Below, in pieces: positions 6,401 through 61,687 of a stretch of 64,000 bases of DNA. Source of the stretch: Vicingus serpentipes (GTDB lineage: Bacteria; Bacteroidota; Bacteroidia; Flavobacteriales_E; Vicingaceae). Both the position numbers and the translations under genes were made by a program. Under the pieces are notes generated by a model. That model saw only the letters and a list, made by a program, of their open reading frames with translations, was not told the origin of the DNA and searched no databases. Where the stretch lies: the NCBI RefSeq assembly GCF_007993035.1, contig NZ_VOOS01000005.1:124001-188000 (forward strand). The letters run 5' to 3'. Each line of letters starts with the position of its first letter. Position 1 is the stretch's first letter.

Positions 6401-6570
6401 TGGAAAAAATTAAAACTTGGATAATGCTTGGTGATTTATTTATTGATGAAAGTAATATTCGATCAGTAAGAAAAAACGGTAAACAAACTATAATTGAACG
6501 AATTCAAGGAGAACCAATAGCCACAAATATTGATTACGATAAAGTCAAATTACTTATCAAAGAAATTTAA
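6400..6570 (+). CDS. Small hypothetical protein, 56 residues
   Basis: The ATG at 6400 overlaps the last base of the ygiQ stop codon (TAATG), so it is probably translationally coupled. The product starts MEKIKTWIMLGD and ends VKLLIKEI; it is mixed acidic and basic with no signal peptide or cysteines. The clean frame of 57 codons, codon use like its neighbours and tight coupling argue that it is real. Its stop overlaps the stop of the convergent PorP-like gene by four bases (6567-6570). I do not recognise a family. Confidence 0.6.
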   Translation: MEKIKTWIMLGDLFIDESNIRSVRKNGKQTIIERIQGEPIATNIDYDKVKLLIKEI

Positions 6571-7504: not shown

Positions 7505-8341
7505 TCACCTTAAAATAGAGACTGGTCCCTTAAACACTTGTCTATCTTGTTTGTCAAATTCCAACTCAATAACATAATAAAAAGTAGAAACCGCTAGATT
7601 TCCTCCAATATATTTGGCATCCCAACCATCAACATTATCATAACCTTCTTTATAATAGACGCGTTGACCCCATCTATCAAAAATATAAACCTTATTTTTA
7701 GGATAGTCTTTTATATTTTGTATAAACCACGTATCATTGAATCCGTCATCGTTTGGAGTAAATATCTGTGAGGGAATAATAGGGTCACATTCTTTTGTCG
7801 TCATACTCATCCATGTAGTATCAACACATCCTTCACCATCAGTTACAACAAGAGGATAAGTACTAATAGGTAAGTCTGAGTAGTAATTACTCTGGGCTAA
7901 ATCTTCTTCAGCGGTATGCAAATAATAAGTGAAAGGTTCAGTACCTCCAGAAATATCTATGATTGAAATATCGTTTACTGGTTGATTACATTCTGTAGGT
8001 TCAGGGGAAACATAATCAACTTGGATATCAACATTCAATAAATATTTAATATTAGAAGCATTATTTTGAGGACAACCTGTTGTTGTCTCCATATAAAGAT
8101 TAATTTGACCAACATTAGTTGATGAAAAAGTTGAGTCAAAACTAACCGTATCTCCATTAAATGTCCAAATGTATTGAGGGTTCACAACTCCAATAGAAGG
8201 CTCTGCTTTAAAATTAACAAGCGTATTTTTACAAACAGGAATCTGCTTATCTGAAATAACCTGAACACTTAAAGGGCATTGGGCACCAGCATTAAGAATA
8301 GTTATAAAAATAAAAATGTAAAAAAATATTCTTTTTAACAT
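7505..8341 (-). CDS. Small T9SS type B (CHU_C) sorting-domain protein
   Basis: Secreted surface protein of 278 residues. A signal peptide (MLKRIFFYIFIFITILNAGAQ region) is followed by a PKD- or Ig-like part (YIWTFNGDTVSFDST, residues about 25-110), a second beta-rich segment (ISIIDISGGTEPFTYYLHT), then the gliding-motility-associated C-terminal domain: FTPNDDGFNDTWFI, VYIFDRWGQRVYYKEGY, GWDAKYIGG and STFYYVIELEF. The Asp/Asn-rich PNDDGFND and the RWG motif define the type B signal. At this size it is a miniature of the large SprB-like adhesins. It is translationally coupled to the downstream PorP/SprF gene. Its ligand or partner is unknown. Confidence 0.87.
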   Translation of the reverse strand: MLKRIFFYIFIFITILNAGAQCPLSVQVISDKQIPVCKNTLVNFKAEPSIGVVNPQYIWTFNGDTVSFDSTFSSTNVGQINLYMETTTGCPQNNASNIKYLLNVDIQVDYVSPEPTECNQPVNDISIIDISGGTEPFTYYLHTAEEDLAQSNYYSDLPISTYPLVVTDGEGCVDTTWMSMTTKECDPIIPSQIFTPNDDGFNDTWFIQNIKDYPKNKVYIFDRWGQRVYYKEGYDNVDGWDAKYIGGNLAVSTFYYVIELEFDKQDRQVFKGPVSILR

Positions 8342-10173: not shown

Positions 10174-10203
10174 AAAAAAAGCCCCTAATCGGGGCTTTTT
10201 TTT
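10174..10203. terminator. Bidirectional intrinsic terminator
   Basis: AAAAAAAGCCCC (10174-10185), loop TAATC, then GGGGC plus eight T. It separates the convergent helicase and T9SS cargo genes and runs into the stop codon of the latter (10202-10204). Confidence 0.85.
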
Positions 10204-13090
10204 ATTTTAACAAAGTAAAAGTTCCTTTTATAAGCTTAGCATCTACACTTGCGCCGTCTGGCACCAACACATAAAAATATGTTCCGTCAGATTGGTCACT
10301 TCCATCCCAATCATTTTTATAATTATCCGTCTCATAAATTTTATTTCCCCATCTATTAAAAATAACTAACGATGATTCTGGATAATAATTTAGGTTAGGA
10401 AATACTAAGAAATCATTAAAGCCATCCCCATTTGGAGTAATAACGTTAACTCCTGAAAGTGTACAATCATTTAATGTCACCATTGCTGAATCTTCAACAC
10501 TATTACACAACCCTGTTATTTCAACATAATAAATACCAGAATCTTGAACTGTAATAGAAGGAGCGGTTGAACCAGTACTCCACAAAAATGAAGCTTCTGC
10601 TACAGACGTTGATACATCAAAGGTTTCTTCGCTACCAAAACAAAAAGTCAAATCTACTAGATTAGATACTACGTATTGAGGGAAATAAACTTCAAACGTA
10701 CTATCCTTTGCACATTGGTTATCAGTAAATGTAAATTCATACAATCCTTTTTTGTCAACTTCAACCAAAGGATTTTCAACTGATTCACTAGTTGTAAAAG
10801 TAACTGTTCCAGGACCACTATAGGTCCATTGACCACCATCATAAGAAGATGTTCCTACAAACTGAAATTGATTTACACAAGAAGTGTCACTTAAAGGAAC
10901 AGAAGGTGTTTGTACAACATTTAGTAAAAATGAATTAGCAATAGCACATTGATTATCAGTATAAGTTAATGTATAAAGTCCTTCTGAATCGACCATTACT
11001 TGTGGATTTGAAGTTGTGTCATTTGGTAAAAAAGTAGCTGTACCTGGTCCATTATAAGTCCATTGACCACCATCATAAGAAGATGTTCCTGCAACTTGAT
11101 AATCTTGAATACATATTGTTGTATCTGATTGAATTACTGGACTAGGAGCAAATATAATATCAAAACTATCTGTCAAACTACACTGATCATCCGTATAATA
11201 CAAAGTATAACTTCCTTCAGCAGTAACATTAACAAGAGGATTTAAATTTGTATTATTTGGAGAAAAATTAACTGTTCCTGGTCCAGAACCTGTCCAAAAA
11301 CCTTGGTTTAAATAAGATGAAGTACCCGTAATTTGAAATTGATTATTACATGCTGTAGTATCTGTTCTTAATTCTGGTGTTGGTAATACATATACTGAAA
11401 CAGTAGTATCGTAATCACAACCATAATTATCTGTAACTGCATAAGTATAATTGTAAATTCCTGTAGTAGGAGGTTGAACTACAATTGCAGTATCATTTTC
11501 TCCAGAAATTATTGATGGATCACTTAACCATCCTTCATCAACAATTGAAGTTGTATAAGTTTCATTGTTTGGATTAATAGTTGGATCAAAAAGAATTCCC
11601 CATTCAAAAATGAAACCATCATCAGTTCCAATATTATCCCTTACAGTAATATACCAATTTCCATTTAACGGACACCCTGCAAAATCTAAAAATGAATCTT
11701 CTGGTAAATAAATACCATTAGGATTCATTGCATTTCCATTAACAGGGTTTGTAACATTTACAAAATTATTATTACCAAATTCTGTTGGAAAATCTCCCCA
11801 AGTATTATAAGTAGATGACCAACAATATTCCATACCAACCCCAGGTGTTCCAATATTGGCATCAAATGCGTTACCTAAAAAAGTTCCTCCACCATTAAAA
11901 CCTCCAGGTATAATGCCCGGAGAATAACTATTAAAAATACTAATTGCAGTTCCATTTGGACAAGTTAATGTCATTTCTAAATCTCCTAAATAAGAATGCT
12001 CCATATTTAAACATAACTGCTCTAAATCAGAAACACTAGTTAACGTTTGTCCAGGCAAAAACCCGCTTATATTAATAGTATCTGTATAATTAATACCACT
12101 ACCATCAGGCAAATAAACTAATCCAGCAAAAGTACCTCCTAACTGAAAATTAGCTTCAGAAGGATCAACTCCTACAGTATCAGTAGCAGTAACACCTCCA
12201 ATAATAACAGTAGTATCACCAAAACAAATAGAATCTCTATTATTAATTATTCCTGAAAAACTTGGAATTGTAGATACTCTAACCTTAGATATTATACTCT
12301 GAGATTGAGGGAATTGATCTGTAATTTTCAATGTTGCCAAATAACCACTTCTAGCTGGAGGTGTAAACCAGACACTATCTCCTAAAGCTGTAGTCCCATC
12401 ACTAAAACTCCATTTATAAGTTACATTAGAACTATTTTGAGAATAGCCTAAACCAGTATTTTCTAATGAATAGGGAAATTGATCTCCTGCAACAAATAAA
12501 ATTGAATCACCAAAACAAACATCAACATATCCTGTATCACTTGGGTTTAATGCATTTGCACCTGCACCATTAACAAAAGCTTCCATATGAGGTGTAAATG
12601 GTTGTGGCAATTGAATACAAGATAAATTTGCATCCCAACCTGTCCCTGTAACTGCTAAATCAGATTTAAATCTAAAAGTTAAACATCCAGTAGCGTTATT
12701 TTCAAATGATGCTATATAATTAAACCCTAATGGGTCAGTACTAGAATTATGCTTTCCTAAAAGAGGTGCATTAACTCCAATTCCATCATAAACAAAAATT
12801 GTATCTGAAGCGTCAACATCAAAAAGTAAACCTGCACTAATTCCAAAGGAAGCAGATAATTTTGTAGTACTTCCTGCATAATCTGGACAAACTACAATCG
12901 TATCATTTTCATTATCAGAATAATTTGCTGAATTATTTCCTGTGTCAAAAAAATTAGCTATCGGTCCAGAATTTGCGTTACAATCAAGGGGATTTAATAA
13001 ATCTAAATCAGAATCACTAATTAAAATAGTTGATTGAGAATATAGAGTAACTGATAATATGTATAAGATTCCTAAGAATAAATTTTTCAT
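10202..13090 (-). CDS. Large T9SS type B cargo protein with CUB-like, PKD-like and P-domain-like regions
   Basis: Predicted surface protein of 962 residues. Visible parts: signal peptide (MKNLFLGILYILSVTLYSQ); a CUB-like region to about residue 160 (FVYDGIGVNAPLLGKH, GCLTFRFKSD); a PKD-like fold (YKWSFSDGTTALGDS); a proprotein-convertase P-domain-like region from about 335 to 510 (HSYLGDLEMTLTCPNGT, GNWYITVRDNIGTDDG); three similar segments of about 68 residues built on GTSSY-x-GQWTY-x-GPGT; an Ig-like stretch; and a C-terminal CHU_C domain (VITPNGDGFNDFLVF, VIFNRWGNKIYET). The P-domain-like region suggests a relationship to exported hydrolases, but I see no catalytic domain. No PorP partner is adjacent. 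A 133-residue secreted protein gene lies 13 bases upstream. Confidence 0.85.
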   Translation of the reverse strand: MKNLFLGILYILSVTLYSQSTILISDSDLDLLNPLDCNANSGPIANFFDTGNNSANYSDNENDTIVVCPDYAGSTTKLSASFGISAGLLFDVDASDTIFVYDGIGVNAPLLGKHNSSTDPLGFNYIASFENNATGCLTFRFKSDLAVTGTGWDANLSCIQLPQPFTPHMEAFVNGAGANALNPSDTGYVDVCFGDSILFVAGDQFPYSLENTGLGYSQNSSNVTYKWSFSDGTTALGDSVWFTPPARSGYLATLKITDQFPQSQSIISKVRVSTIPSFSGIINNRDSICFGDTTVIIGGVTATDTVGVDPSEANFQLGGTFAGLVYLPDGSGINYTDTINISGFLPGQTLTSVSDLEQLCLNMEHSYLGDLEMTLTCPNGTAISIFNSYSPGIIPGGFNGGGTFLGNAFDANIGTPGVGMEYCWSSTYNTWGDFPTEFGNNNFVNVTNPVNGNAMNPNGIYLPEDSFLDFAGCPLNGNWYITVRDNIGTDDGFIFEWGILFDPTINPNNETYTTSIVDEGWLSDPSIISGENDTAIVVQPPTTGIYNYTYAVTDNYGCDYDTTVSVYVLPTPELRTDTTACNNQFQITGTSSYLNQGFWTGSGPGTVNFSPNNTNLNPLVNVTAEGSYTLYYTDDQCSLTDSFDIIFAPSPVIQSDTTICIQDYQVAGTSSYDGGQWTYNGPGTATFLPNDTTSNPQVMVDSEGLYTLTYTDNQCAIANSFLLNVVQTPSVPLSDTSCVNQFQFVGTSSYDGGQWTYSGPGTVTFTTSESVENPLVEVDKKGLYEFTFTDNQCAKDSTFEVYFPQYVVSNLVDLTFCFGSEETFDVSTSVAEASFLWSTGSTAPSITVQDSGIYYVEITGLCNSVEDSAMVTLNDCTLSGVNVITPNGDGFNDFLVFPNLNYYPESSLVIFNRWGNKIYETDNYKNDWDGSDQSDGTYFYVLVPDGASVDAKLIKGTFTLLK

Positions 13091-13103: not shown

Positions 13104-13505
13104 CTATTTTCTTAATTCTTTTAAAATATGATCTTTAGATTTTACGACTAACATTTGATCAGTACCTTCGATTGCGAAATATTGATAATCATCTTGAATT
13201 ATTTCTAAGTTTAATTCAAAGAAGTTTATATTGCTAGCATCTTTTATAGTTATTGAACCAATTCTAGTTTGCCCTTCAGACATTTTCTCCATTGGAATTG
13301 GGTTTAAATAAAATGCATTTTTAGCGCAATATTTTAAATATTCATATTCTTCAAAATCTTGAACTTTAATATTGTCAATTTCTTCCTGAGAATATTTCAA
13401 TAACAAATCTTTATCAGAATCATTACTCTGAGAAAAAGCAGTTGAAGAGAAAATAAAAAAACCTAGAATTAAAAAGCTTTTCATCATATTCATATAATTG
13501 TTCAT
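13104..13505 (-). CDS. Small secreted protein of unknown function
   Basis: 133 residues with a signal peptide (MMKSFLILGFFIFSSTAFSQ, preceded by a few optional residues; ATGs at 13505, 13493, 13487 and 13484 are all possible starts). The mature part is acidic (SNDSDKDLLLKYSQEEIDNIKVQDFEEYEYLKY) and then beta-rich, with TRIGSITIKD and LMVVKSKD-like segments. It lies 13 bases upstream of the large type B cargo gene and is probably cotranscribed. No sorting domain and no family recognised; it may assist or accompany the cargo, which is inference from position only. Confidence 0.65.
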   Translation of the reverse strand: MNNYMNMMKSFLILGFFIFSSTAFSQSNDSDKDLLLKYSQEEIDNIKVQDFEEYEYLKYCAKNAFYLNPIPMEKMSEGQTRIGSITIKDASNINFFELNLEIIQDDYQYFAIEGTDQMLVVKSKDHILKELRK

Positions 13506-48715: not shown

Positions 48716-50023
48716 ATGAGTAATATTGTAGCAATAGTAGGAAGACCAAACGTAGGAAAATCTACTCTTTTTAATAGACTAACAGAGAGCAGACAAGCAA
48801 TTGTTGATGAATCGAGTGGAGTAACAAGAGACCGTCATTATGGTCTAGTTGATTGGAATGGAAGACAATTTACGTTGATTGATACTGGTGGTTACATTAA
48901 AGGTTCTGATGATATTTTTGAAGATGAAATTCGAAAGCAAGTTATTATTGCGATCGAAGAAGCAGATTTAATAATTTTTGTGGTAGATGTTACCTTAGGA
49001 ATAACTGACCTAGACCAACAGGTTGCTAACGTTTTAAGACGCGCAAACAAAAAAATCTTATTGGTTTCAAACAAAGTTGATAATACCTCTCGTATTCCTG
49101 ATTCTAGTGTTTTTTACGGATTAGGTATAAGCGATGAAATATATAATGTATCTTCAGTTAGTGGAAGTGGAACAGGAGAATTACTAGACGAAGTCGTTAA
49201 TAATTTGGAGGAAAAGCCTGAAGAAAATGATGACGATTTGTTAAGACTAGCAATTGTTGGACGTCCAAATGTTGGAAAATCATCTTTACTAAATGGTTTA
49301 ATTGGTGTAGATAGAAATATTGTGACTAACATCGCAGGAACAACTAGAGATGCAATTTCAACTCGATATACAGCGTATGGTTTTGACATGAAGTTGATTG
49401 ATACAGCTGGTCTTAGAAAGAAAGTAAAAGTAAATGAAGATTTAGAGTTTTATTCTGTGATGCGTACAATTCGCGCCATAGAAAACTCTGATGTTTGCCT
49501 ATTAATGATTGAAGCTACCGAAGGTATCATGACTCAAGACATGAACATCTTTAGTTTGATTTTAAAAAATAAAAAAGGACTTGTTGTTCTTGTAAATAAG
49601 TGGGATTTAATAGATAAAGAAACGAACACTGCAAAAGAATTTGAAGCAGCTATTAGACAAAGAATGTCTCCATTTACAGATGTGCCTATTATATTTACTT
49701 CTGTAACCAATAAGCAACGTATTTTTAAAGCTTTAGAAGAGGTTGTAAAAGTTTATGAAAATAGAGTTAAAAAAATACCTACTTCAAAACTTAACGAAGT
49801 AATGTTAGATATAATAACAAGAAATCCACCACCAGCCGTAAAAGGAAAATACATTAAAATTAAGTTTGTAAGTCAACTACCTACTCACACTCCAACATTT
49901 GCTTTCTATTGTAATTTACCTCAATACATTAAAGAACCTTATAAACGGTTTTTAGAAAATAAATTGAGAGAAAATTTTGATTTTACTGGAGTTCCTATTC
50001 AGTTATTTATGAGGAAAAAATAA
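48716..50023 (+). CDS. der: GTPase Der (EngA), ribosome assembly
   Basis: 435 residues with two tandem GTPase domains: [14 protein letters not shown] at residue 8 and [14 protein letters not shown] near 183, each followed by DTGG or DTAG and NKxD (SNKVD, VNKWD). The KH-like C terminus has [13 protein letters not shown]-type sequence. Needed for 50S subunit maturation. It ends in a strong terminator. Confidence 0.96.
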
Positions 50024-50055
50024 AAAAAGTCCAATCAAATGATTGGACTTTTTTT
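50022..50055. terminator. Bidirectional intrinsic terminator
   Basis: AAAAAAAGTCCAATC (50022-50036), loop AAAT, GATTGGACTTTTTTT (50041-50055), perfect 15-bp arms including the A/T tracts. It separates der from the convergent hydrolase gene. Confidence 0.92.
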
Positions 50056-50068
50056 ATGGAACCAGGTC

Positions 50069-51205
50069 TTAGTCTTTAATCACTTTTTTAGAAAATATAG
50101 AAAAATTAGTAGTAACCTGAAGAATATATATTCCTTTATTGAGTTCTGATATATCTATCGAATTTAAATTCCCAATTGCAGTTTTAATGAGTTTGCCTTG
50201 TAAATCGAATAATGAAATACTTTCTATCTCATCTTTAGCAGATATATTTAATAAAGCATTGGCAGGAATAGGATAAACCTTGAACTCTTCATAATTTGAA
50301 TAGTTGTTTAATGAAGTAAAAATTCCACAATTATTTTCAAATTCAGCAACTGTATTAGGTTGGTTTGATGTGTTCGTTAAATTATTGGCTGCTTCATCAT
50401 CGTTTTTGAATTCACTCAACATCCAGCTCACCAAAAAATGCCTAATTGTAGCTGTTGCATCGGCTCTCCCTATAGAACCAACGGGTTGGCTAGCTAGCAC
50501 ATAATCTCCAAATCCTCCGTGATCTAGACCATCGATATTTACATATGTTTTACAAGATGAACTCGAAAACTTATCCCATCCTTCTTTATTTGATGTTGGA
50601 TCATTCTCTCCTGCAGCCATAGTTAATACTTTACCGGCATAATTGGAAACATTGTGAGCTCCCAAACCAAAAATACCTCCACTTGGATATGAATCCATAA
50701 AAACAATTCCACTTATTTCAGTAGGTCGGTTAACTAACAAAGCCGAAGCATTAACCCCTCCATTTGAATGGCCTCCAATAATAAGCGTTGTAGGATCTGC
50801 ATAAGAACTAAGCCAATGACTTTGATTTGAAACTTCTGATTTAAACCAATCATGAGCAGCAGTAAAAGACCCTCCGTTTGGAAAACCCGCTTGAGAATCA
50901 TCTATTACAATTACAACAAACCCATAAGAAGCTATATGCTTCATAAACAAGTCGTAAGTATGTCTATTAATAACTGAACTCCCAACTGAATTTGCTCCCA
51001 ACTGAAACATAAATACAGGATAATTTCCTTGATTTTGAGGACGATATATTAATAAAGGTACTGAAATAGCCGTCATATCTGAATCTGATACAACTGTATA
51101 AGAACCATCAGCTAAATATGGGCTGCTTTGCGGGTTTATTTGGCCTTTTGAATTACTAAACCAAAAAGTAACGAGCATAATAATAAGTAAACATCTTTTC
51201 ATCAT
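50069..51205 (-). CDS. T9SS-targeted alpha/beta hydrolase
   Basis: 378 residues. Signal peptide (CLLIIMLVTFWFSNSKGQ), an alpha/beta-hydrolase domain (about 25-270) and a type A sorting domain (FKVYPIPANALLNISAKD ... LNKGIYILQVTTN ... KVIKD). The nucleophile is Ser in IGGHSNGG, a candidate acid is Asp in VFMDSYPSGG, and His in DGLDHGGFGD. The fold is closest to dienelactone hydrolase/chlorophyllase-like esterases. The same combination of an esterase domain with a Por sorting domain occurs in some polyester-degrading enzymes of Bacteroidota, but the oxyanion-hole region (MFQLGANSVGS) differs and the substrate is open. Confidence 0.83.
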   Translation of the reverse strand: MMKRCLLIIMLVTFWFSNSKGQINPQSSPYLADGSYTVVSDSDMTAISVPLLIYRPQNQGNYPVFMFQLGANSVGSSVINRHTYDLFMKHIASYGFVVIVIDDSQAGFPNGGSFTAAHDWFKSEVSNQSHWLSSYADPTTLIIGGHSNGGVNASALLVNRPTEISGIVFMDSYPSGGIFGLGAHNVSNYAGKVLTMAAGENDPTSNKEGWDKFSSSSCKTYVNIDGLDHGGFGDYVLASQPVGSIGRADATATIRHFLVSWMLSEFKNDDEAANNLTNTSNQPNTVAEFENNCGIFTSLNNYSNYEEFKVYPIPANALLNISAKDEIESISLFDLQGKLIKTAIGNLNSIDISELNKGIYILQVTTNFSIFSKKVIKD

Positions 51206-51497
51206 TGAATATTTTTGAATTTAAACACCAATATTAAATATGTAAATACTCATAAAAAACGCTCGTATTTAGGCTTTAATCAGATAAAAAAACCAGCTTA
51301 TTATCTCTTGACAGAAAGTGTTAATAATTGTCTGTATTGTAGTTTATAGTAATACTAAATTTTGGATTTGGCATCAACCCAAAAAATAAAACACACTAAA
51401 AAAATATAATCGAAACAATATTTTTTTGATTGGTGTCTATTAAGTTGTTAAATTTATCTGCTTTTAGCATATTTTAATTAAAAAAATATTCGTTCTT

Positions 51498-51815
51498 ATG
51501 TTTAAAATTCTAATACCTATATTGTTACTTTTTACTTATTATACAAGTAATGCCCAAGAGATTGCTAAAGAAAGAGTTACAACTTACTCTTTTAACATTA
51601 ACAAACTAAAAACTCAGGACCAAGTTACCGCTATTGAATCATCAGTTAAATTGCTGGACAACGTTACCAATTGCAATTTAGATTGGCTGAACTATAAAAT
51701 GACTGTAAAAGTTTATGAGGGTGGAACAAAAGGATATTTTTCAATGGAAAAATTAAAAGCCATTCTACTTGAAAATAAAGCCGCTTTAAAATCATTCACT
51801 AAAGAATCTAAATAA
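51498..51815 (+). CDS. Small secreted protein heading the adhesin operon, unknown function
   Basis: 105 residues with a signal peptide (FKILIPILLLFTYYTSNAQ) and a compact domain whose order suggests beta-alpha-beta-beta-alpha-beta (TTYSFNINKL, TQDQVTAIESSVKLL, NCNLDWLNYKMTVKVY, MEKLKAILLENKAAL). This resembles the heavy-metal-associated ferredoxin-like fold but lacks CxxC, so metal binding is not supported. It lies two bases before the giant adhesin gene and probably shares its transcript. The 292-base gap upstream holds no gene; I found no convincing promoter. Confidence 0.6.
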   Translation: MFKILIPILLLFTYYTSNAQEIAKERVTTYSFNINKLKTQDQVTAIESSVKLLDNVTNCNLDWLNYKMTVKVYEGGTKGYFSMEKLKAILLENKAALKSFTKESK

Positions 51816-51817
51816 TT

Positions 51818-54800
51818 ATGATAAAATATTTTACTCTTTTATCAATTGCGTTTTTATTCTCTATACTTCTATACTCACAATCAGACGAATGTTTAAATGC
51901 TGTTGTAATTAACCCTACTTTCACTACTTGTTCATTTCAAGCAGGCTCCTCTGCTAATGCAACTGAATCACTACCATCATGCTCTGGGGGAGGAAATGCA
52001 GATGATGATGTTTGGTATACGTTTGTTGCTAATAGTACAAACATGACTATTACAGTTGACCCTACTACAGGATATGACGCTGTAATTCAACTATATACTG
52101 GCACTTGTGGATCACTGACTTCAATTCAATGCGAAGATGTAAATGGCCCTAACGGAGATGAAGTTTTAAGTAATCAAACACTTACAATTGGAAACACATA
52201 TTTTATTCGGGTTTATAATTATAGTGCAGGATGGGGCTCAGCAACCTTTAATATTTGTGTTACAGGACTAGCTCCTCCAATAAACGATACGCCATGTAAT
52301 GCTTATGCTTTATCTACAGTTACACCTTCTTGTAATTTTGAAATTTACACCAATTCAGGAGCAGGTAATTCTTCAGTTCCAACTCCTTCTGGATGTGGAG
52401 GTTCAACTCCTTTTGATGGAGGTTATTTAGGAAGTGATGTTTGGTTCTCTGTTATAGTACCAGCAAGTGGAGAACTCGATATTCATACACTATCAGTTGA
52501 TTTTGCAGACGGAGCAATGGCTTTATATTCTGGTGCTTGTGGTGCATTAACATTAGTAGAATGTGATGATGATGGCGAGCCTGGGGATGGCATTCTTATG
52601 CCTCATATTTATGCAACTGGATTAACCCCTGGAGCAACAATGTATATTCGCGTTTGGGAATATGACAACGATAATAATGGGCAGTTTGGTATTTGTGTAT
52701 CAACTCCTGACAATGACGATTGTGCTAACTCTCAAGAGATTTGTGATTTAAATGGATATGGAGGAATTACAAGTAGTGCATATACAGTAGATTTTCCAAG
52801 TAACATGACTGGTACTGGTCAAAATGGTATTGCTAACTCCAATCCTACAGCTCCTTTCGGTCAAGGCTATGGAGGAGTTTCTCCAGTACAAATAGACAAT
52901 AATAGTTGGTTAACTTTTACTGCTGATGCAACAACCGCTGAATTGTTTGTTCAAGTAAACTATTGCTCTAATGGAAATGGAATGCAAATGCAAATATTTA
53001 GCGGGACTAATTGTACCAATTTCACTGCAGTATCTACTTTTTTAGAAACAACAAATTCTCAAACTATTACAGCAAGTGGGTTAACTCCTGGCAACCAATA
53101 TTATATTATGATTGATGGTTTTGCAGGAGACATCTGTTCATATACTATTTCCGCTACAAGCGGAGTACAAGTTGTCGAAATAACTTCAACAAAAACGAAT
53201 ATTTGTTTGGGAGATACTGCTTCACTTGATGCTGAAGTGACTGGTACTGGATCTTATACATATACATGGAGTTCAACTCCTGCTGGTTTAAGTAGTTCAT
53301 CTCCCTCTGTTAACGTTAATCCTAGTCAAAACACGCTTTATACCGTTGACATTACAGGAGTTTGTGGCTCAGTTTCAACTGCAAATTTATATGTTACAGT
53401 AAACCCTTTACCTACTGTTAATATTACCGCTTCTGACACTGAAATATGTTTAAACCAAGTGATTAGTTTAAACGGAAATGTTTCGAGTGGAACAGCTCCT
53501 TTTACTCATCTTTGGTCAGGAAACGGACAACCTTTCTTAAATACATCATCAAGTGAAACGCCCAATTTTAATGGTAGTACCGATGGAGATTATACACTTT
53601 TATATGAATTAACCGACACAATTGGATGTACAACTTCGGATAGTATAATCCTAAAAGTAAATCCCATACCTTTTATTACTATTTCTGGTATAGATAGCAT
53701 TTGTAATGGTGACACCACTTTACTTGTTGCTTCTGGCGGAACTTCATTTTTATGGAGCAACACCTCAACTAATGATTCTATTTTCGTGTCTCCAACAAGT
53801 GATACCAATTATAGTATAACTGTTACTGATAGTAATAGTTGTAATAATTCTGGCAATATTGACGTAATCGTAAATCCTTTACCAAATCCATCTATTTCAG
53901 GGACATTAATTATTTGCCAAGGAAATTCTACTTCATTAACTGCAAGTGGAGGAAATACTTACAGTTGGAGTACAGGAGATACTTCAGCTACTATAAATAT
54001 TACTCCAATAACAGACAGCAGTTATACGGTTACAGCTATAAATGCAAATGGGTGTTTTGATACAACGAGCGTAACTGTTCAGGTTAATCCTAAACCAACA
54101 GCAAGCTTATCAGGTATTGATACGATTTGTATAGGAAATAGCACTACTCTATTTGCAAATGGTGGCAATTCTTATACTTGGAATAATGGTTCAACATTAG
54201 ATTCTTTAATTGTTTCACCAACTAATGATTCAATTTTCTCAGTTGTTGCAAATATAAATAGCTGTTTAGATACGGCTTATTATACGGTTGTAGTAAATTC
54301 ACTTCCTATTCCAATTATTACAGGAATTGATACGATTTGTAATGGCGAATTAACAACATTAACTGCTTCTGGCGGCATTTCTTATTCTTGGAATACAGGA
54401 AGTACAAATGATTCTATAATAGTTTCTCCATCTCTGGATTCTACTTATTCCGTTACAATTACTGATGTTAATAATTGTAGTAATTCTACCAATATCAATG
54501 TAGTTGTAAATACTTTACCAAATCCTACAATCAATGGCTCTTCATTAATTTGTAGTGGAAGCTCTACAACATTAACTGCATCAGGAGGAACTTCTTATTT
54601 ATGGAATAATGGAGCTTCAACTCCAGACATTACAGTCTCTCCAATAATAGATTCAACGTATATAGTTACAGTTTCCAATGCAAACAATTGTTCTGATACG
54701 GTTTCTACAACAGTTCAAGTAGTAAGCAATCCTAACGGATTAATTACCTCAAGTAATGGTTCAAATTTCTTATGTATTGGAAATGCCACAACATTATCTG

Positions 54801-56095
54801 CTTCTGGTGGTGGAGCTTATACTTGGAACAATGGTTCTACACTCGATTCTTTAGTTGTTTCACCAATTTTAGATTCAACATACTCTGTAATAGTAAATAT
54901 TGGTGGTTGTGTCGATACAGCTTATTTTGCAATAACTGTAAATTCATTACCTATAATTAATTTTAGTGGCGTTGATACTATTTGTGATGGTGAATCGACC
55001 ACACTAACTGCTTCTGGAGGCACTTCTTATTTATGGAATACTGGAAGTACAAATGATTCCATAGTAGTTTCTCCAACAACAAATACAACTTATAATGTTG
55101 TTGCTACTGATGTAAACAATTGTTCAAATTCAGCGATTATTGATGTTGTTGTAAATAACTTACCGACAATAACTATTTCAAGCTCTCAAAACGATACCAT
55201 TTGCGAAGGTCAAACTTCAACACTTGCAGCAAATGGTGCAAATAGTTATGAATGGAGTACAACAGAATTAACTCCATCAATAGATGTGAGTCCTACTGTA
55301 AATACAACTTATAATGTAGAGGGTACAAATACAAATGGGTGTAAAAACACTGCTAGTTTTACATTAAACGTAGCTACACAACCAACTGCTTCAATAATGG
55401 GTATAACAGAAATTTGTGAAAATGGAGAAACTACATTAACTGCTTCAGGAGGCTTAACCTATCTATGGAGTAACACTGAAATAACACCTTCAATAACTGT
55501 TTCTCCTTCAGATACGACTGTTTACTCGGTAGTTAGCATTATTAATTCATGTGTTAGTGATACTGCTAAAATCACAGTAAATGTAATTCTTAATCCTTCA
55601 ATAAATGCTTATAGTGATACCCTGATTAATTTAGGTCAATCTGTACAACTATTAGTACAAGGAGATGCTCCTTTTTTATGGTCTCCTACAAATGATTTAT
55701 CATGTATAACTTGTGAAAATCCAGTTGCTACACCAACAGAAACAACAGTTTATTGTGCTGAAGTTACTATAAATAATTGTTCTAGTTCAGCATGTGTAAC
55801 GGTGGAAGTTGAAAATATTTGTGGGGAACTATTTGTACCAGATGCTTTTTCTCCTAATAATGATGGCAACAACGATTGCTTAAAAGTATATAGTAATTGT
55901 TTGGACGAAGTATTGTTTAGGGTATATTCTCGTTGGGGAGAATTAATTTATGAATCTACCGAAATTAATGGGTGCTGGGACGGAACATACCACGGCAAAG
56001 AATTAAATAGTGGTGCTTATGCATATACCGTAAAAGCTTTATTGGTTAATGGTGTGGAAGTTGATATTAAAGGAAATACAACATTATTTAAATAA
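51818..56095 (+). CDS. Giant T9SS type B adhesin with Ig-like repeats
   Basis: 1,425-residue surface protein. Signal peptide (YFTLLSIAFLFSILLYSQS), three jelly-roll domains of the type seen in pre-peptidase C-terminal regions (DDVWYTFVANSTNMTITVD, DVWFSVIVPASGELDIH, SWLTFTADATTAELFV; to about 440), two diverged Ig-like domains, then nine repeats of about 71 residues with core IC-x-G-x-xTTL-x-ASGG-x-SY-x-W, and a C-terminal CHU_C domain (FVPDAFSPNNDGNNDCLKVY, YSRWGELIYE, CWDGTYHGKELNSGAYAYTV). Type B cargo of this kind is typically a gliding or attachment adhesin. Genes for a TPR-PD40-OmpA protein and a PorP/SprF protein follow directly. Confidence 0.88.
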   Translation: MIKYFTLLSIAFLFSILLYSQSDECLNAVVINPTFTTCSFQAGSSANATESLPSCSGGGNADDDVWYTFVANSTNMTITVDPTTGYDAVIQLYTGTCGSLTSIQCEDVNGPNGDEVLSNQTLTIGNTYFIRVYNYSAGWGSATFNICVTGLAPPINDTPCNAYALSTVTPSCNFEIYTNSGAGNSSVPTPSGCGGSTPFDGGYLGSDVWFSVIVPASGELDIHTLSVDFADGAMALYSGACGALTLVECDDDGEPGDGILMPHIYATGLTPGATMYIRVWEYDNDNNGQFGICVSTPDNDDCANSQEICDLNGYGGITSSAYTVDFPSNMTGTGQNGIANSNPTAPFGQGYGGVSPVQIDNNSWLTFTADATTAELFVQVNYCSNGNGMQMQIFSGTNCTNFTAVSTFLETTNSQTITASGLTPGNQYYIMIDGFAGDICSYTISATSGVQVVEITSTKTNICLGDTASLDAEVTGTGSYTYTWSSTPAGLSSSSPSVNVNPSQNTLYTVDITGVCGSVSTANLYVTVNPLPTVNITASDTEICLNQVISLNGNVSSGTAPFTHLWSGNGQPFLNTSSSETPNFNGSTDGDYTLLYELTDTIGCTTSDSIILKVNPIPFITISGIDSICNGDTTLLVASGGTSFLWSNTSTNDSIFVSPTSDTNYSITVTDSNSCNNSGNIDVIVNPLPNPSISGTLIICQGNSTSLTASGGNTYSWSTGDTSATINITPITDSSYTVTAINANGCFDTTSVTVQVNPKPTASLSGIDTICIGNSTTLFANGGNSYTWNNGSTLDSLIVSPTNDSIFSVVANINSCLDTAYYTVVVNSLPIPIITGIDTICNGELTTLTASGGISYSWNTGSTNDSIIVSPSLDSTYSVTITDVNNCSNSTNINVVVNTLPNPTINGSSLICSGSSTTLTASGGTSYLWNNGASTPDITVSPIIDSTYIVTVSNANNCSDTVSTTVQVVSNPNGLITSSNGSNFLCIGNATTLSASGGGAYTWNNGSTLDSLVVSPILDSTYSVIVNIGGCVDTAYFAITVNSLPIINFSGVDTICDGESTTLTASGGTSYLWNTGSTNDSIVVSPTTNTTYNVVATDVNNCSNSAIIDVVVNNLPTITISSSQNDTICEGQTSTLAANGANSYEWSTTELTPSIDVSPTVNTTYNVEGTNTNGCKNTASFTLNVATQPTASIMGITEICENGETTLTASGGLTYLWSNTEITPSITVSPSDTTVYSVVSIINSCVSDTAKITVNVILNPSINAYSDTLINLGQSVQLLVQGDAPFLWSPTNDLSCITCENPVATPTETTVYCAEVTINNCSSSACVTVEVENICGELFVPDAFSPNNDGNNDCLKVYSNCLDEVLFRVYSRWGELIYESTEINGCWDGTYHGKELNSGAYAYTVKALLVNGVEVDIKGNTTLFK
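53684..55620 (+). repeat. Nine Ig-like repeats with a three-domain super-repeat
   Basis: Nine repeats of about 71 residues cover 53684-55620. Repeats 1-3 match repeats 4-6 in order, and repeat 7 begins a third cycle: GIDSICNGD (53684), GIDTICNGE (54320) and GVDTICDGE (54965) are 636 and 645 bp apart. Repeats 3 and 6 share NNGSTLDSL-VSP and the DTAY ending; 1, 4 and 7 share a NNCSNS-type ending. Confidence 0.8.
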
Positions 56096-56096
56096 G

Positions 56097-58079
56097 ATGA
56101 GAAGGTTATTGGTGTTATGCATATTAATCTTTTCTTCTCAACTTATAGTTGGGCAAAATATTCCTTTTGATAAAAACAACTTCACTGATAAAGAAAGATT
56201 GAAAAGTGCTTTAAAAAACATACAAGAAGGAGATGCCTTTTATTTTTCTAATATCTATTCAAAAGCATTAGAAAAGTTTTCGGAAGCAAATACTTTTAAC
56301 CCTAAAAATGCTGACTTAAACGCTAAAATAGGTGATTGTTATTTGCGCACTGGAGAATATAAAAAAGCACAACTTTCATTAGAAAAAGCATATCAATTAA
56401 ATCCTGAAATGGATGGATATTTTCTCTATTTATTAGGAAAAACTTATCATATAAATAACAACTTTAAAAGTGCTATAGAGTTCTATAAAAAAGCAAAATC
56501 AAAAGGGTCAAACTTAAATTCATCTGCTATAGAAACAGCAGGTAAAAAAATAGAAGAATGTGAATTTGGAAAAGAGTTAGTGGCTTCATCTGTTAAAGTT
56601 GTAATTACAAATGTTGGCAACCTTATTAATAGTGCTGATCATGAATATGTTCCTGTAATTACTGCTGATGAATCGGAAATGTTTTTTACTTCTAGAAGAA
56701 AAAATACTACAGGAGGAAAAAGAGATTACTTAATTGACGACTACTACGAAGATATTTATTATTCAAAAAAAGAAAATGAGACTTGGAGTGAAGCTGTAAA
56801 TATAAGCTCTCCAATTAATAGTGAATTTCATGATGCAACAGTTGGATTATCAATAGATGGACAGAAATTATTTATTTACAGAGACAATGCTAAAGGAGAT
56901 GGAAATATCTTGGTAACAGAACGAACTGGTAATAGCTGGAGTGAACCTGAAGAACTTCCAAACCCAATAAATTCAAAACATCAAGAAACCTCTGCTTGTT
57001 TCTCTTATACTGGCAAAACAATTTATTTTGTTAGTGACAGACCAGGTGGATATGGAGGAAAAGACATTTATAAATCAGACTTAGATGAAAAAGGAAAATG
57101 GGGGAACGCACAAAACCTTGGAGCAACAATAAATACTCCTTTTGATGAAGACGCTATTTTTTTACATGCTGATGGCAAAACACTTTATTTTAGCTCAAAA
57201 GGACACCAAACTATGGGAGGGTATGATATTTTTAAAAGTGTTTTTGAAAAAAATAAATGGTCAACACCAATAAATCTAGGTTATCCTATAAATTCTGCAG
57301 ATGATGATGTTTGCTTTGTATTATCTGCAAATGGAAAGTATGGTTATTACACTTCCGAAAAAGTAGAAGGACAAGGGAAAAAAGACATTTATAAATTAAC
57401 TTTTGAAGTAAAAGATGATAAACCAAGACTTACATTATTGAAAGGGATTGTTTACGATAGTAAATCAAAAGAATTATTGAGCGCACAAATAGAAATTTTT
57501 GACAATACTGAAAACAAATTAGTTTCTACTTATCATTCAAACAGTGTTACAGGAAAATACATTGTTTCATTACCTGCAGGTCATGATTATGGAATTAGTG
57601 TTCGAAAAGAAGGTTATTTATTTTACTCTCAAAACATAAATATACCTGATACAGCAGCATTTCAAGAAATTAAAAAAGACATTGGTTTAGATAAAATTGA
57701 AGCTGGAAAGAAAGTGGTGTTAATGAATATTTTTTATGACTACAATAAATCTTCCTTAAGAACATCTTCTTTTAATGAATTAGATAAAGTTGTGGAATTA
57801 TTAAACAAAAACCCTAAAATGAAAGTAGAACTAGGCGCACATTCTGATTCTAGAGGAAGCGATGGATATAATTTAAAACTGTCGCAAGACAGAGCTCAAT
57901 CTTGTGTTGATTATTTAACCTCTAAAGGAATAGACAAAGTAAGACTAAACGCAAAAGGCTATGGGGAATCTAAACCAATAATTTTAGAAACCGAAATTAA
58001 TAACCTTAAAACCGAAGATGAAAAAGAAAAAGCTCATCAACAAAACCGACGAACCGAATTTAAAATATTAGAACATTAA
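56097..58079 (+). CDS. OmpA family protein with TPR, PD40 and carboxypeptidase-regulatory-like domains (PorE-like)
   Basis: 660 residues starting at the ATG at 56097 (one base after the adhesin stop); a longer frame from 56049 lies inside the adhesin gene. Signal peptide (RRLLVLCILIFSSQLIVGQ), TPR helices (about 28-150), PD40 propeller repeats (about 185-430, DEDAIFLHADGKTLYFSS, GGYDIFKS), a CarboxypepD_reg-like fold (about 445-530) and an OmpA domain (about 545-660) with LGAHSDSRGSDGYNLKLSQDRAQ, whose Asp and Arg contact peptidoglycan. This order matches PorE-type proteins that tether T9SS parts to peptidoglycan. The context suggests it anchors the adhesin complex. Its stop overlaps the next start. 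Confidence 0.87.
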   Translation: MRRLLVLCILIFSSQLIVGQNIPFDKNNFTDKERLKSALKNIQEGDAFYFSNIYSKALEKFSEANTFNPKNADLNAKIGDCYLRTGEYKKAQLSLEKAYQLNPEMDGYFLYLLGKTYHINNNFKSAIEFYKKAKSKGSNLNSSAIETAGKKIEECEFGKELVASSVKVVITNVGNLINSADHEYVPVITADESEMFFTSRRKNTTGGKRDYLIDDYYEDIYYSKKENETWSEAVNISSPINSEFHDATVGLSIDGQKLFIYRDNAKGDGNILVTERTGNSWSEPEELPNPINSKHQETSACFSYTGKTIYFVSDRPGGYGGKDIYKSDLDEKGKWGNAQNLGATINTPFDEDAIFLHADGKTLYFSSKGHQTMGGYDIFKSVFEKNKWSTPINLGYPINSADDDVCFVLSANGKYGYYTSEKVEGQGKKDIYKLTFEVKDDKPRLTLLKGIVYDSKSKELLSAQIEIFDNTENKLVSTYHSNSVTGKYIVSLPAGHDYGISVRKEGYLFYSQNINIPDTAAFQEIKKDIGLDKIEAGKKVVLMNIFYDYNKSSLRTSSFNELDKVVELLNKNPKMKVELGAHSDSRGSDGYNLKLSQDRAQSCVDYLTSKGIDKVRLNAKGYGESKPIILETEINNLKTEDEKEKAHQQNRRTEFKILEH

Positions 58080-59125
58080 TGAAAGTCAAACATCTATATA
58101 TCATCCTTATTTTTAATATTCTTTCAGCATTCAGTCTAAATGCTCAAGATATTCATTTAACACAAACTAATATGACTCCACTATTAGTTAATCCTGCAAA
58201 TGCTGGAGCAGAATATGAAATACGCGGAATACTAAATTACCGATCTCAATGGACAAGTTCTGATGCACCATTTAAAACTATGATGGCATCTTACGATATG
58301 AATTTTAAAAAAGGAAAACAATCTAAGTTTGGATATTTTGCAGGGGGTATTTATTTATTTAACGACAAAGCCGGCACAGCAAACATTACAACAAATCAAG
58401 CAAATTTAAGTATTGCTTACCATGTTAATCTTAATTCAAAAAACACACTTGGTGTTGGTATTCAAGGAGGTTATTTTCAACGCTCTACAAGTACTTCTGA
58501 TTTAAAATGGGGAAGTCAATTTGATGGTTACTCTTATAACGCTGATTATTCAACTGGAGAAGCTGCAGGAGATAAATTTACTGTTGGTTCTACCGATTAT
58601 AATACTGGATTAGTTTGGACTTATAGAAATGATGAAAAATATTTTTCTGGTGAAAAAATCATCATAACTTCAGGATTATCTTTTCACCATATAAATAAAC
58701 CTAGCTATGAAAATCAAGGTTTAGTTACAGATAATCTATATAATAGATGGATTGGACACTCAAGTGCTACAATTGGTTTAAATACTAAAATATCTATACT
58801 TCCTTATATTTTTTATTCTTATCAAGGAGAAATTGATGAGGCTATGTTTGGATCTAATATGCTTTATTCTCTAAAAAATTCATCTACATACACCAATAAT
58901 ATTAAAGGAATGGCAATAGGTGGCGGGGCATTTTATAGATGGAATGATGCCGTAATTTTAACCATCCTTGCTCAATACTCTAATTATATGTTTGAGTTTA
59001 GTTACGACATAAACACCTCTTCTTACAGCAATGCAACAGGTGGTAACGGAGCTTTTGAACTATCAATACAATATGTTTATCCTAGTCCTTTTGGTGGTGT
59101 TAAAAGTAGATCAAGGTTCAATTAA
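58079..59125 (+). CDS. PorP/SprF family T9SS outer-membrane protein
   Basis: 348 residues with signal peptide (MKVKHLYIILIFNILSAFSLNAQ) and hallmark DIHLTQTNMTPLLVNPANAGAEYEIRGILNYRSQW (in two parts: HLTQTNMTPLLVNPANAG and LNYRSQW). Alternating strands continue to a C-terminal YVYPSPFGGVKSRSRF. Overlaps the previous stop by one base (TAATG). Probable client is the adhesin at 51818-56095. It differs clearly from the PorP/SprF protein at 6567-7502. Confidence 0.88.
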   Translation: MKVKHLYIILIFNILSAFSLNAQDIHLTQTNMTPLLVNPANAGAEYEIRGILNYRSQWTSSDAPFKTMMASYDMNFKKGKQSKFGYFAGGIYLFNDKAGTANITTNQANLSIAYHVNLNSKNTLGVGIQGGYFQRSTSTSDLKWGSQFDGYSYNADYSTGEAAGDKFTVGSTDYNTGLVWTYRNDEKYFSGEKIIITSGLSFHHINKPSYENQGLVTDNLYNRWIGHSSATIGLNTKISILPYIFYSYQGEIDEAMFGSNMLYSLKNSSTYTNNIKGMAIGGGAFYRWNDAVILTILAQYSNYMFEFSYDINTSSYSNATGGNGAFELSIQYVYPSPFGGVKSRSRFN

Positions 59126-59126
59126 C

Positions 59127-59780
59127 TTATTGTATAATATTATGCTTTATTGCTTTTTGAACAGCTTCCATTTTGTTATGAACCTGTAATTTTTTATAAA
59201 TATTCTCAATATGCTTACGAACTGTTGCTGGGCTAATAATTAAATTATCTGCTATTTGCTGGTAATTAAGTCCTTTTGACAATTGTTCTAAAATTTCTGT
59301 TTCACGACTGCTCAGCTTAATTTCTTCTTGCTGAACTTTGTCTCCTGTCATTTTCTCTGGATGACGTAAAATATTTAACGTTTTCAAAGCAACAGAAGGA
59401 GTCATAGCAGCCCCTCCCTCTAAAACATCTAAAATTGCTTTATGCAATTCTTCTGGATTGGTTTCTTTTAATAAATAACCATCTGCTCCTGCTTGTATTG
59501 CATTAAAAATATTATCATCATCATCATAAACAGTAAGCATTAATATTTTAATGTGAGGAAACTTATTTTTTACATATTCAGTAGTTGAAATACCATCCTT
59601 TTCTGGCATTTGAATATCCATTAAAATAACATCAACATTATGATCTTGTTCCAACTTACCTATAAACTCATTTCCATTTGCTCCTCTAAACTTAAATTTT
59701 AAGTCATCAAAAAAAGAAATTTTTTCTTCCACCGCTTTAGCTAAAAAGCCATTATCTTCTGCTACTGCTACTCTTATCAT
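59127..59780 (-). CDS. LuxR/NarL family response regulator
   Basis: 217 residues. The receiver domain shows acidic EDN at 8-10, phosphoacceptor Asp55 in ILMDIQMPEKDG and Lys105 in LLKETN. The C-terminal GerE-type helix-turn-helix reads LSSRETEILEQLSKGLNYQQIADNL (about 155-179) with TVRKHIENIYKKL. Probably activated by the kinase encoded upstream at 59855-61687. Its stop is one base from the end of the convergent PorP gene. Confidence 0.95.
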   Translation of the reverse strand: MIRVAVAEDNGFLAKAVEEKISFFDDLKFKFRGANGNEFIGKLEQDHNVDVILMDIQMPEKDGISTTEYVKNKFPHIKILMLTVYDDDDNIFNAIQAGADGYLLKETNPEELHKAILDVLEGGAAMTPSVALKTLNILRHPEKMTGDKVQQEEIKLSSRETEILEQLSKGLNYQQIADNLIISPATVRKHIENIYKKLQVHNKMEAVQKAIKHNIIQ

Positions 59781-59854
59781 GTTTTTAGTTTTATGTTATT
59801 TCAAAGGTATTTAGCCTTTCAATAATAAACTATACGGCATTTGTCTTATTTCGT

Positions 59855-61687
59855 TCAATTAAATTCAGCTATAGGTATTTCTAAAATAATTTCTGTACCT
59901 TCTTTTGGTGTTGAGTTTATAGCGAAATTTGCATGAATAGCAGAAGCTCTATTTTTCATATTCTCCAATCCGTTTCCTAATTGTATTTCAGCCATTTTAA
60001 ATCCAATTCCATCATCATTTATTGATAACACCAAAAAATCATTCTTTTCAGTGATTAATAAAGAAACATTTGTTGCTGCAGCATATTTCATCGCATTATT
60101 TATTGCTTCTTGCACAACCCGATATATACTAACTCCTTGAATTGAGTTTAAATGAAAATTATTACTCAACTCCACATTAAAGTTAAATACTGTTTGCTCT
60201 TGAGCTAGATTAGCATTTTCTATATACTTGTATAATCTAGACTTTAAATCTTCAAAAGAAATTTCATCTTTATTCAGTGCCCAAATGGTATCTCTCAATT
60301 GAGTAATTGTTGTCCTAGAGAAATTTGCAACATCAGTTAATTTGTCTGTTAATTTTTCATCAGCCGATTTAAAAAAGTGTTTCATGTTGTCAACTGATGA
60401 AATAATAAAAGTTAATTGAGCCCCAATATTATCATGTAAATCTCTAGATATTTTAAGTCGCTCTTCATGTAATTTACTTTGCAAAGTAATTTGAGCCAAT
60501 TGGTCTTTTAATCTGTTTTCTTCAAAAAGTCGTTGTTGCTTTTGTTTTTGCTGTTTGTATATAAATGAAGCTATAACAAAAAATAATAATACGATTAACC
60601 CCAAAACAAGCATCATGTAATTTCGTTGCTTCACCTTTAGCTCTTGTGCCGATATTTCTGCTTTTTGTTCAGCAATTTCTTTTTCCTTTTTTTCGGTGTC
60701 AAACTGTACTTCTAATTTTGCAATAGCATTATTTGTTGATTCATTTAACAATGAATCTTTTAATGCTTGTTGAATTTTTAAAAATTTGACCGTATTTAAA
60801 TTATCTCCTATTTTCTCATAACAAATTGCAGCATGCTCTGCAGCATATTGTCCTAAATGAATATATTTATTTGGTATGGCTTCATAGTAACACATTACAA
60901 ACCATTTTAAAGCCTCTTTATAATTTTCTTGAGCATAATAAAAATCAGCATACAACACTAAACATTCTGCTATCCCATAGGTATCGTTTCGTTTTTTACG
61001 AATAGCATACGATTCATCTAAGTATTCTTTTGATTTATTATAGTCTTTTTTAACTAAATAAGCTCCCGATAAATGTCCTAACGCGAAAGGAATACCTATG
61101 CTATCGTTTTGATTTCTTTTTAAATCTAGTGCCATATTGTAATAATAAATTGCAGAGTCAACATTTCCTGCGATCTCTTGAACAATACCATAATTATCGT
61201 ACACCGAATTTAAAGCTACCTCATCATTTATTTCTTTTAATAAATGAACCCCTTTTTGCATATATTCAATTGCTTTATCAATGTCCCTTCTTTTCATTGC
61301 AAAACCTAATTCGGCATAAGTTATCCCTGCATTAGATTTGTTATTGGTAGCTTCATAAATTTTAATGGCTTTTAAATTAAAATCTAATCGTTTATCATTA
61401 TTTCCTAAAAAAGCATTTATTAAAGCCAATTGGTTATAAATATCTGCTTCTGCTTCTTTGTCCTTTAATTGTTTTGCTTGACCTAATGCGTCTAAATAGA
61501 GTTTTTCGGCAACAGAAGTGTTTGCAACCACCTTATCATAAGGAATAGCTAATAATAGTTCTATTTGCTGTTCTTCTGTATAATTTTGAATTGAAGAGGC
61601 AATACTGTCAATATAATTTTGTGCAGACATTACTATTGACGACGATAGAAGTACTACTAAAATTATATTTTTTAAAATTAAGCGCAT
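59855..61687 (-). CDS. TPR-containing sensor histidine kinase (HisKA_3)
   Basis: 610 residues: signal peptide (LILKNIILVVLLSSSIVMSAQ), TPR repeats in the periplasm (about 60-310), a coil, one membrane helix (about 358-378), a second coil and a HisKA_3 dimerisation domain with LKISRDLHDNIGAQLTFIISS, whose His in DLHD is the phosphoacceptor. The ATPase domain has VVQEAINNAMKYA and NDDGIGF, followed by LGNGLENMKNRA. This is the usual partner of NarL-type regulators, and the response regulator follows on the same strand after 74 bases. The start codon directly abuts the T-tract of the pheS terminator. Confidence 0.93.
   Translation of the reverse strand: MRLILKNIILVVLLSSSIVMSAQNYIDSIASSIQNYTEEQQIELLLAIPYDKVVANTSVAEKLYLDALGQAKQLKDKEAEADIYNQLALINAFLGNNDKRLDFNLKAIKIYEATNNKSNAGITYAELGFAMKRRDIDKAIEYMQKGVHLLKEINDEVALNSVYDNYGIVQEIAGNVDSAIYYYNMALDLKRNQNDSIGIPFALGHLSGAYLVKKDYNKSKEYLDESYAIRKKRNDTYGIAECLVLYADFYYAQENYKEALKWFVMCYYEAIPNKYIHLGQYAAEHAAICYEKIGDNLNTVKFLKIQQALKDSLLNESTNNAIAKLEVQFDTEKKEKEIAEQKAEISAQELKVKQRNYMMLVLGLIVLLFFVIASFIYKQQKQKQQRLFEENRLKDQLAQITLQSKLHEERLKISRDLHDNIGAQLTFIISSVDNMKHFFKSADEKLTDKLTDVANFSRTTITQLRDTIWALNKDEISFEDLKSRLYKYIENANLAQEQTVFNFNVELSNNFHLNSIQGVSIYRVVQEAINNAMKYAAATNVSLLITEKNDFLVLSINDDGIGFKMAEIQLGNGLENMKNRASAIHANFAINSTPKEGTEIILEIPIAEFN

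Follow-up and report, generated by a model that had tools for sequence, protein, structure and literature searches.

What is the function of a small secreted protein that is encoded directly before a giant adhesin? This question is raised by a 64,000-nucleotide stretch of the Vicingus serpentipes genome (contig NZ_VOOS01000005.1, positions 124,001 to 188,000 of the forward strand; hereafter the window), in which a 105-residue protein (the leader) opens a four-gene operon that also encodes a giant adhesin with a sorting domain for the type IX secretion system (T9SS), a TPR-PD40-OmpA protein and a PorP/SprF-family protein. We find that all 39 testable loci of the orthologous adhesin (19 in the window's own family and 20 in six others) have the leader immediately before the adhesin gene, irrespective of the type of sorting domain and of the presence of PorP or a PorE-like gene; it is probably that adhesin's dedicated helper, and we regard it as a new family of components within a secretion system that is itself known. 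The features of the operon are as follows.

51498..51815, + strand: leader (105 residues, secreted); signal peptide at about residues 1-19, mature protein from Gln20; predicted HMA-like ferredoxin-like fold without CxxC, with the invariant Lys87 in the second helix
51818..56095, + strand: giant T9SS adhesin (1425 residues); signal peptide, N-terminal beta-sandwich module, Ig_7 repeats and type B sorting domain
51818..53167, + strand: N-terminal module (adhesin residues 1-450), which the leader tracks across families
52715..53167, + strand: 'ICDLNGY' domain of the adhesin (residues 300-450), whose strong full-length matches co-occur with the leader
55835..56041, + strand: T9SS type B sorting domain of the adhesin (TIGR04131; CHU_C in Pfam), residues 1340-1408
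56097..58079, + strand: PorE-like protein (660 residues) with TPR, PD40 and OmpA domains
58079..59125, + strand: PorP/SprF-family shuttle and anchor protein (348 residues)

All four genes are on the + strand; the leader and adhesin genes are separated by 2 bases, the adhesin and OmpA genes by 1 base, and the OmpA and PorP genes overlap by 1 base. Coordinates and domain scans thus bear out the four genes, the order, the two gaps and the overlap described in an initial annotation of this DNA. The start of the OmpA gene is taken at the ATG at 56097; the earlier ATG in the list of open reading frames (ORFs), at 56049, would overlap the adhesin. 'Adhesin' is a label by architecture, that is, the protein is a putative adhesin as judged from its domains.

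The leader and the adhesin as neighbors

Within the window's family (46 genomes), a search with the single leader sequence gave 8 clear matches (E <= 1.3e-15); profile A1 brought in two diverged leaders, and profile A2 located leaders in 18 genomes (E <= 3.5e-15), with seven further genomes giving weaker matches only (up to 0.05). A separate search with just the N-terminus of the adhesin (residues 1-294) matches 19 of the 46 genomes strongly (E <= 5.4e-63); these are the 18 leader genomes from profile A2 and genome G010, in which a diverged leader was first spotted by eye (locus L094). At all 19 loci the leader is directly upstream of the adhesin.

The same neighborhood is found in other families. 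Among 395 genomes of the class, the strong matches of profile A3 (E <= 3e-11) mark 26 leader places, of which 19 belong to families other than the window's (f20, f21, f28, f29, f37 and f41); 18 of these leaders (L109-L126), and also the 19th (L150), directly precede the orthologous adhesin. The same genomes were searched with the 150-residue ICDLNGY domain (search A4, built from leader-bearing loci), which gave strong matches over the full length at 28 places (E <= 7e-38); after these, from 7e-30 onward, come partial matches and weaker full-length ones. Twenty-six of the 28 are profile A3 leader places, the 27th (G264) has a leader 12 bases upstream that was found by eye, and the 28th (G394) runs off the end of its contig. 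Outside the window's family, the leader is present in 20 of 20 testable places; the adhesin orthogroup as a whole contains 40 loci, one of which is cut by a contig end. The initial annotation had named absence of the leader from orthologous operons, or its occurrence mainly elsewhere, as what would speak against its proposal; the leader is instead present at every testable locus and does not occur mainly elsewhere. The spacing between leader and adhesin in 38 tabulated pairs is -17 to 93 bases (median 12), with five pairs overlapping by 4 bases; in the 39th pair (L097) it is 94 bases.

In a sample of 308 genomes of the phylum, which shares genomes with the class sample, a true leader and a full-length domain both occur only in the window's genome; the other match in the leader search (G531, E 2e-6) is an HMA protein. 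The class and phylum searches scored at most 9-14 candidates per genome, so some members may have been missed, and our reading of individual loci mostly excluded weak leader matches (E 0.0005-0.05 in the family search; E > 4e-4 in the class search).

The genes downstream of the adhesin identify what the leader tracks. In the window's family the sequence of L022 and L092 stops within the adhesin, which leaves 17 of the 19 loci with a downstream side. PorP is encoded at 16 of these, either next to the adhesin or separated from it by one gene (L098) or by the PorE-like gene (the window); the operon in G010 has none. Of these 17 loci only the window's has the TPR-PD40-OmpA gene; the 16 other own-family loci with a downstream side are without it. 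When the other families are included, 37 loci have a downstream side (17 own-family and 20 in other families, L138 being cut). Of their operons, 19 encode PorP (16 own-family; L140, L149 and L182 elsewhere) and 4 a PorE-like protein (the window, L140, L149 and L182); the order is adhesin-PorP-OmpA in L140, L149 and L182 and adhesin-OmpA-PorP in the window. At 17 of the 20 loci in other families PorP was not found with a local model and by eye, an approach that a very diverged PorP could escape. The adhesins of family f37 have a type A sorting domain (TIGR04183; three of three scanned), and the two f37 adhesins with upstream DNA (L139 and L148) are preceded by the leader. Because the leader is independent of the type of sorting domain, of PorP and of the PorE-like gene, we conclude that what it accompanies is the adhesin's N-terminal module. 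The initial annotation had joined the leader to a known PorP-OmpA-adhesin trio; this describes the operon in the window but not a fixed unit, and the constant unit is the leader plus the adhesin.

This distribution also bears on the possibility that the leader is part of a PorP/PorE shuttle-anchor complex. The genes share an operon in the window, and P. gingivalis assembles its PorP and PorE with a type B substrate in one complex (PMC9143113). However, most loci in other families are without a detected PorP, the PorE-like gene is rare, and the type A adhesins of f37 also have the leader; since neither gene is constant, we rejected this as the main explanation and consider it unlikely.

The predicted fold of the leader and the other proteins of the operon

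No Pfam or NCBIfam family scores above its cut-off with the window's leader, in agreement with its description in the initial annotation as unrecognized; the leader also matches neither TIGR04131 nor TIGR04183, that is, it is without a type A or type B sorting domain. The Pfam matches of the 38 aligned leaders are scattered over 34 families with at most 2 members each, the best being that of one member to PI3K_p85B (E 1.9e-5); HMA (PF00403) gives no match for the window's leader and none for the 38 members among the 25 of 34 families listed. Seven of the 38 leaders match GLPGLI (TIGR01200) weakly (best E 0.00098); membership in this family was rejected, as three re-scanned leaders score 14.8-16.9 bits against a cut-off of 50, in the signal peptide and first half. 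No solved relative was found by sequence with profile A1 (best E 0.79).

The AlphaFold2 model of the leader (mean predicted local distance difference test score, pLDDT, 86.1) has the order strand-helix-strand-strand-helix-strand, that is, the ferredoxin-like order that had been read from the sequence. When the model is compared with the PDB using Foldseek, the best 15 rows are all HMA domains (best E 4.9e-4); with VIA, the top eight rows have Z 10.9-11.2 and root-mean-square deviations of 1.5-2.0 across 67-75 residues. Descent from HMA is unproved because other ferredoxin-like folds tie in VIA score, being within 1 Z (3bpd, Z 10.8; permuted ribosomal protein S6, Z 10.7). Leader profile A6 aligns with four secreted HMA or HMA-like proteins at an hhalign probability of 96%, in the signal peptide and first half only.

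Two positions are invariant in the 38 aligned leaders: the Gln at the predicted signal cleavage site (38/38) and Lys87 in the second helix. Such conservation speaks against a chance occurrence. The Q-rule for the Bacteroidetes predicts Gln after cleavage in signal peptidase I substrates (PMC5837995); the conservation of this residue agrees with the rule and, thus, with the prediction that the leader is such a substrate. The leader belongs to an unnamed family of secreted proteins with a predicted ferredoxin-like fold.

The HMA-like predicted fold suggests that the leader could be a degenerate MerP, that is, a binder of metal or a small ligand that modifies or loads the adhesin, or that signals. 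Four weak leader-profile matches outside adhesin operons were read and scanned. Two of them favor this possibility, as they are secreted proteins above the Pfam HMA cut-off that keep CxxC (L128 and L212); L129 and L131 are below the cut-off and have a Cys without the second Cys. The leaders themselves, however, are without CxxC (0/38, as the initial annotation had noted for the window's leader), have at most one Cys after residue 22 (37 leaders), and are without HMA among their listed Pfam families. A metal carrier is disfavored because CxxC is absent, and we regard the role of metal or ligand binder as improbable. Two other matches away from adhesins, a 115-residue ORF at L206 (E 9.6e-6) and an ORF at L091 (E 0.0007), were taken as signal-peptide noise.

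The domain scan identifies six Ig_7 stretches in the adhesin, and its TIGR04131 score (48.7 bits; cut-off 35) assigns it to the type B substrates. The ICDLNGY domain matches no Pfam family above cut-off; a fold search with the adhesin's N-terminus (model pLDDT 75) gave matches with low TM scores, many of them to proteins that contain jelly-roll-type domains. The fourth protein belongs to the PorP/SprF family (PF11751; TIGR03519, 163.7 bits against a cut-off of 90.55) and has no cysteine after residue 20, so it does not have an SprF-type CxC C-tail. The third protein scores 350 bits against the PorE model NF052230, below its cut-off of 600, and is called PorE-like only. No Rfam family was found within positions 50000-60000 of the window; the promoter scan gave fewer sites than in shuffled sequence, and the terminator-like sites (7, compared with 2.6 in shuffles) are inside genes. 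Downstream, a response-regulator-like gene and a TPR histidine kinase-like gene (identified by eye; 59127-61687, - strand) converge on the end of the operon, 1 base after PorP.

Signs of joint inheritance and candidate roles

The trees of 36 leaders and 36 adhesin domains broadly agree, and the distances between leaders correlate with those between domains (r 0.67, n 36), with 0 of 2000 permutations giving a value as high. Genome G010 belongs to the window's family (f1); its leader and adhesin group with f29 in both trees, with L138 and L140 in the leader tree (support 0.89) and with five f29-type members in the domain tree (0.995). The pair from the window falls with genera g9 and g16 in either tree (support 1.0) rather than with its three congeners. 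The trees indicate that the leader and adhesin are inherited jointly, and both genes have probably been exchanged or replaced together. That the leader is a chance neighbor kept by operon inertia, with no functional link, is highly improbable: the pairing holds at all 39 testable loci, which come from seven families and differ in their flanking genes, the pair in G010 groups jointly with another family, and the leader and domain are co-absent in the phylum sample.

We favor the explanation that the leader is a dedicated periplasmic partner, that is, an escort or stabilizer, of the adhesin's N-terminal module, and hold it with about even confidence; physical binding, its place on the adhesin and the chaperone role are inferred. 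Encoded first and beside the adhesin, the leader would be exported by Sec and cleaved by signal peptidase I; it would stay in the periplasm, bind the N-terminal beta-sandwich domains, and hold or fold the very long adhesin until type IX export. The type IX machine would then act on the C-terminal sorting domain and move the adhesin across the outer membrane. In the window operon, PorP would keep the adhesin at the surface and the PorE-like protein would probably link PorP to the peptidoglycan, giving a static rather than a gliding adhesin; the absence of Cys after residue 20 in the window's PorP is the reason for proposing static, wall-anchored attachment. A periplasmic helper is the simplest explanation because the leader is encoded first, because some leaders overlap the start of the adhesin, and because the leader is without a sorting domain.

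The main rival is a structural subunit that rides out of the cell through the T9SS pore on the adhesin ('piggy-back') and that caps or completes the N-terminal head at the surface. The strict pairing with the N-terminal module irrespective of sorting domain and the signs of joint inheritance would suit such a subunit; the window's leader, however, has no sorting domain of its own, and we consider this possible but doubtful. The initial annotation had suggested a 'chaperone or co-exported subunit'; this is still the best guess, now narrowed to a partner of the adhesin's N-terminal module.

Several observations weigh against the periplasmic helper or against the pairing from which it is derived. 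The missing sorting domain suits a periplasmic chaperone and a piggy-backed subunit equally, and a general periplasmic chaperone, SkpA, already serves the export of SprB in F. johnsoniae (PMC10994853). The correlation of leader and domain distances is uncorrected for shared species history, the trees are partly incongruent (L182 and the f37 members are placed differently), and the wider five-member node that contains G010 in the leader tree has a support of 0.446. Search A4, which was built from leader-bearing loci, added just two places beyond the leader search; at 12 loci that carry a weaker relative of the domain (E 1e-30 to 1e-20; full-length in some cases) no leader is detectable; and in G164 (L151) a 124-residue leader-like protein (E 3.9e-8) precedes a 281-residue protein that is not an adhesin.

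The periplasmic helper may be one example of a wider rule, that is, small ORFs before giant adhesins, although this is a lead rather than a result. At the distant adhesin loci (L184-L195) a small ORF, mostly with a secretion-like start, is directly upstream in 10 of 12 (the exceptions are L184 and L188); the leader model gives no match at any of the 12. Two of the small proteins were compared with the leader and rejected as relatives (hhalign probabilities 0.4% and 5.3%); because no relation was detectable, the small proteins from distant loci are left out of the leader counts. In the window's own genome a small ORF is directly upstream at five adhesin loci (L205, L206, L209, L210 and L211), and none was found at L196, L198, L202, L207 and L208. 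A rough null count, which is a guide only because the loci were chosen for their adhesins and the signal test was a rule of thumb, compares proteins of at least 700 residues: of those with a DVW[YF] motif, 31 of 36 are directly preceded by a small secreted ORF, and of those without it, 9 of 44.

One of these loci, L205 (6567-13505 of the window, - strand), is a second PorP locus:

13104-13505, - strand: small secreted-looking protein (133 residues), without a local leader-model match
10202-13090, - strand: 962-residue protein with a type B-like end
7505-8341, - strand: 278-residue protein
6567-7502, - strand: PorP

At another (L209; C2:55000-66000 of the same genome), a 1413-residue paralogue contains part of the ICDLNGY domain, and a 130-residue secreted-looking protein overlaps it by 4 bases; our guess, by eye, is that this small protein has a leader-like fold. 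The genome (G000, 2.9 Mb) encodes 14 PorP/SprF proteins that pass the cut-off of the family, and their loci are arranged in many different ways.

Comparison with known systems

A topical search of the open-access literature, with most subscription papers outside its scope, found no description of such a leader. The portions of the T9SS papers that we compared center on the C-terminal sorting domain, the translocon and the PorP/SprF shuttles. If the periplasmic helper is correct, the T9SS would gain a cargo-specific step through the N-terminal partner of a single adhesin family, and this would help to explain how exported proteins of ~1100-2300 residues remain competent in the periplasm.

The leader shares the predicted beta-alpha-beta-beta-alpha-beta fold with the HMA domain proteins (PF00403; CopZ, Atx1 and MerP); unlike them, the leaders are without CxxC (38/38) and are tied to adhesin operons. 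The SprB operon of F. johnsoniae and, more generally, the pairs of type B C-terminal domains with PorP/SprF have the same combination of a giant adhesin and a cognate PorP/SprF shuttle, on which type B substrates leave the translocon (PMC12618676); the available part of that description contains no leader of the window's kind. SprF attaches to GldK by a CxC motif in its periplasmic C-tail (PMC12635249), whereas the PorP in the window is without this tail; one type B substrate with a PorE-like partner appears static (PMC12618676, PMC12635249, PMC9143113). PorE-PorP-PG1035 of P. gingivalis likewise comprises a TPR/beta-propeller/OmpA-like protein, PorP and a type B substrate (PMC9143113); a small secreted fourth component is not part of its description in the portion of the paper available, and the PorE-like gene is inconstant in the loci described here. 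SkpA, a Skp-like chaperone of the extended T9SS translocon, is likewise a periplasmic protein, a helper needed for SprB export (PMC10994853). In contrast to the leader, SkpA is described there as a Skp homologue that forms a trimer in the translocon, serves several substrates and is not tied to a single adhesin gene, whereas the leader would be the helper of the one adhesin that is encoded beside it.

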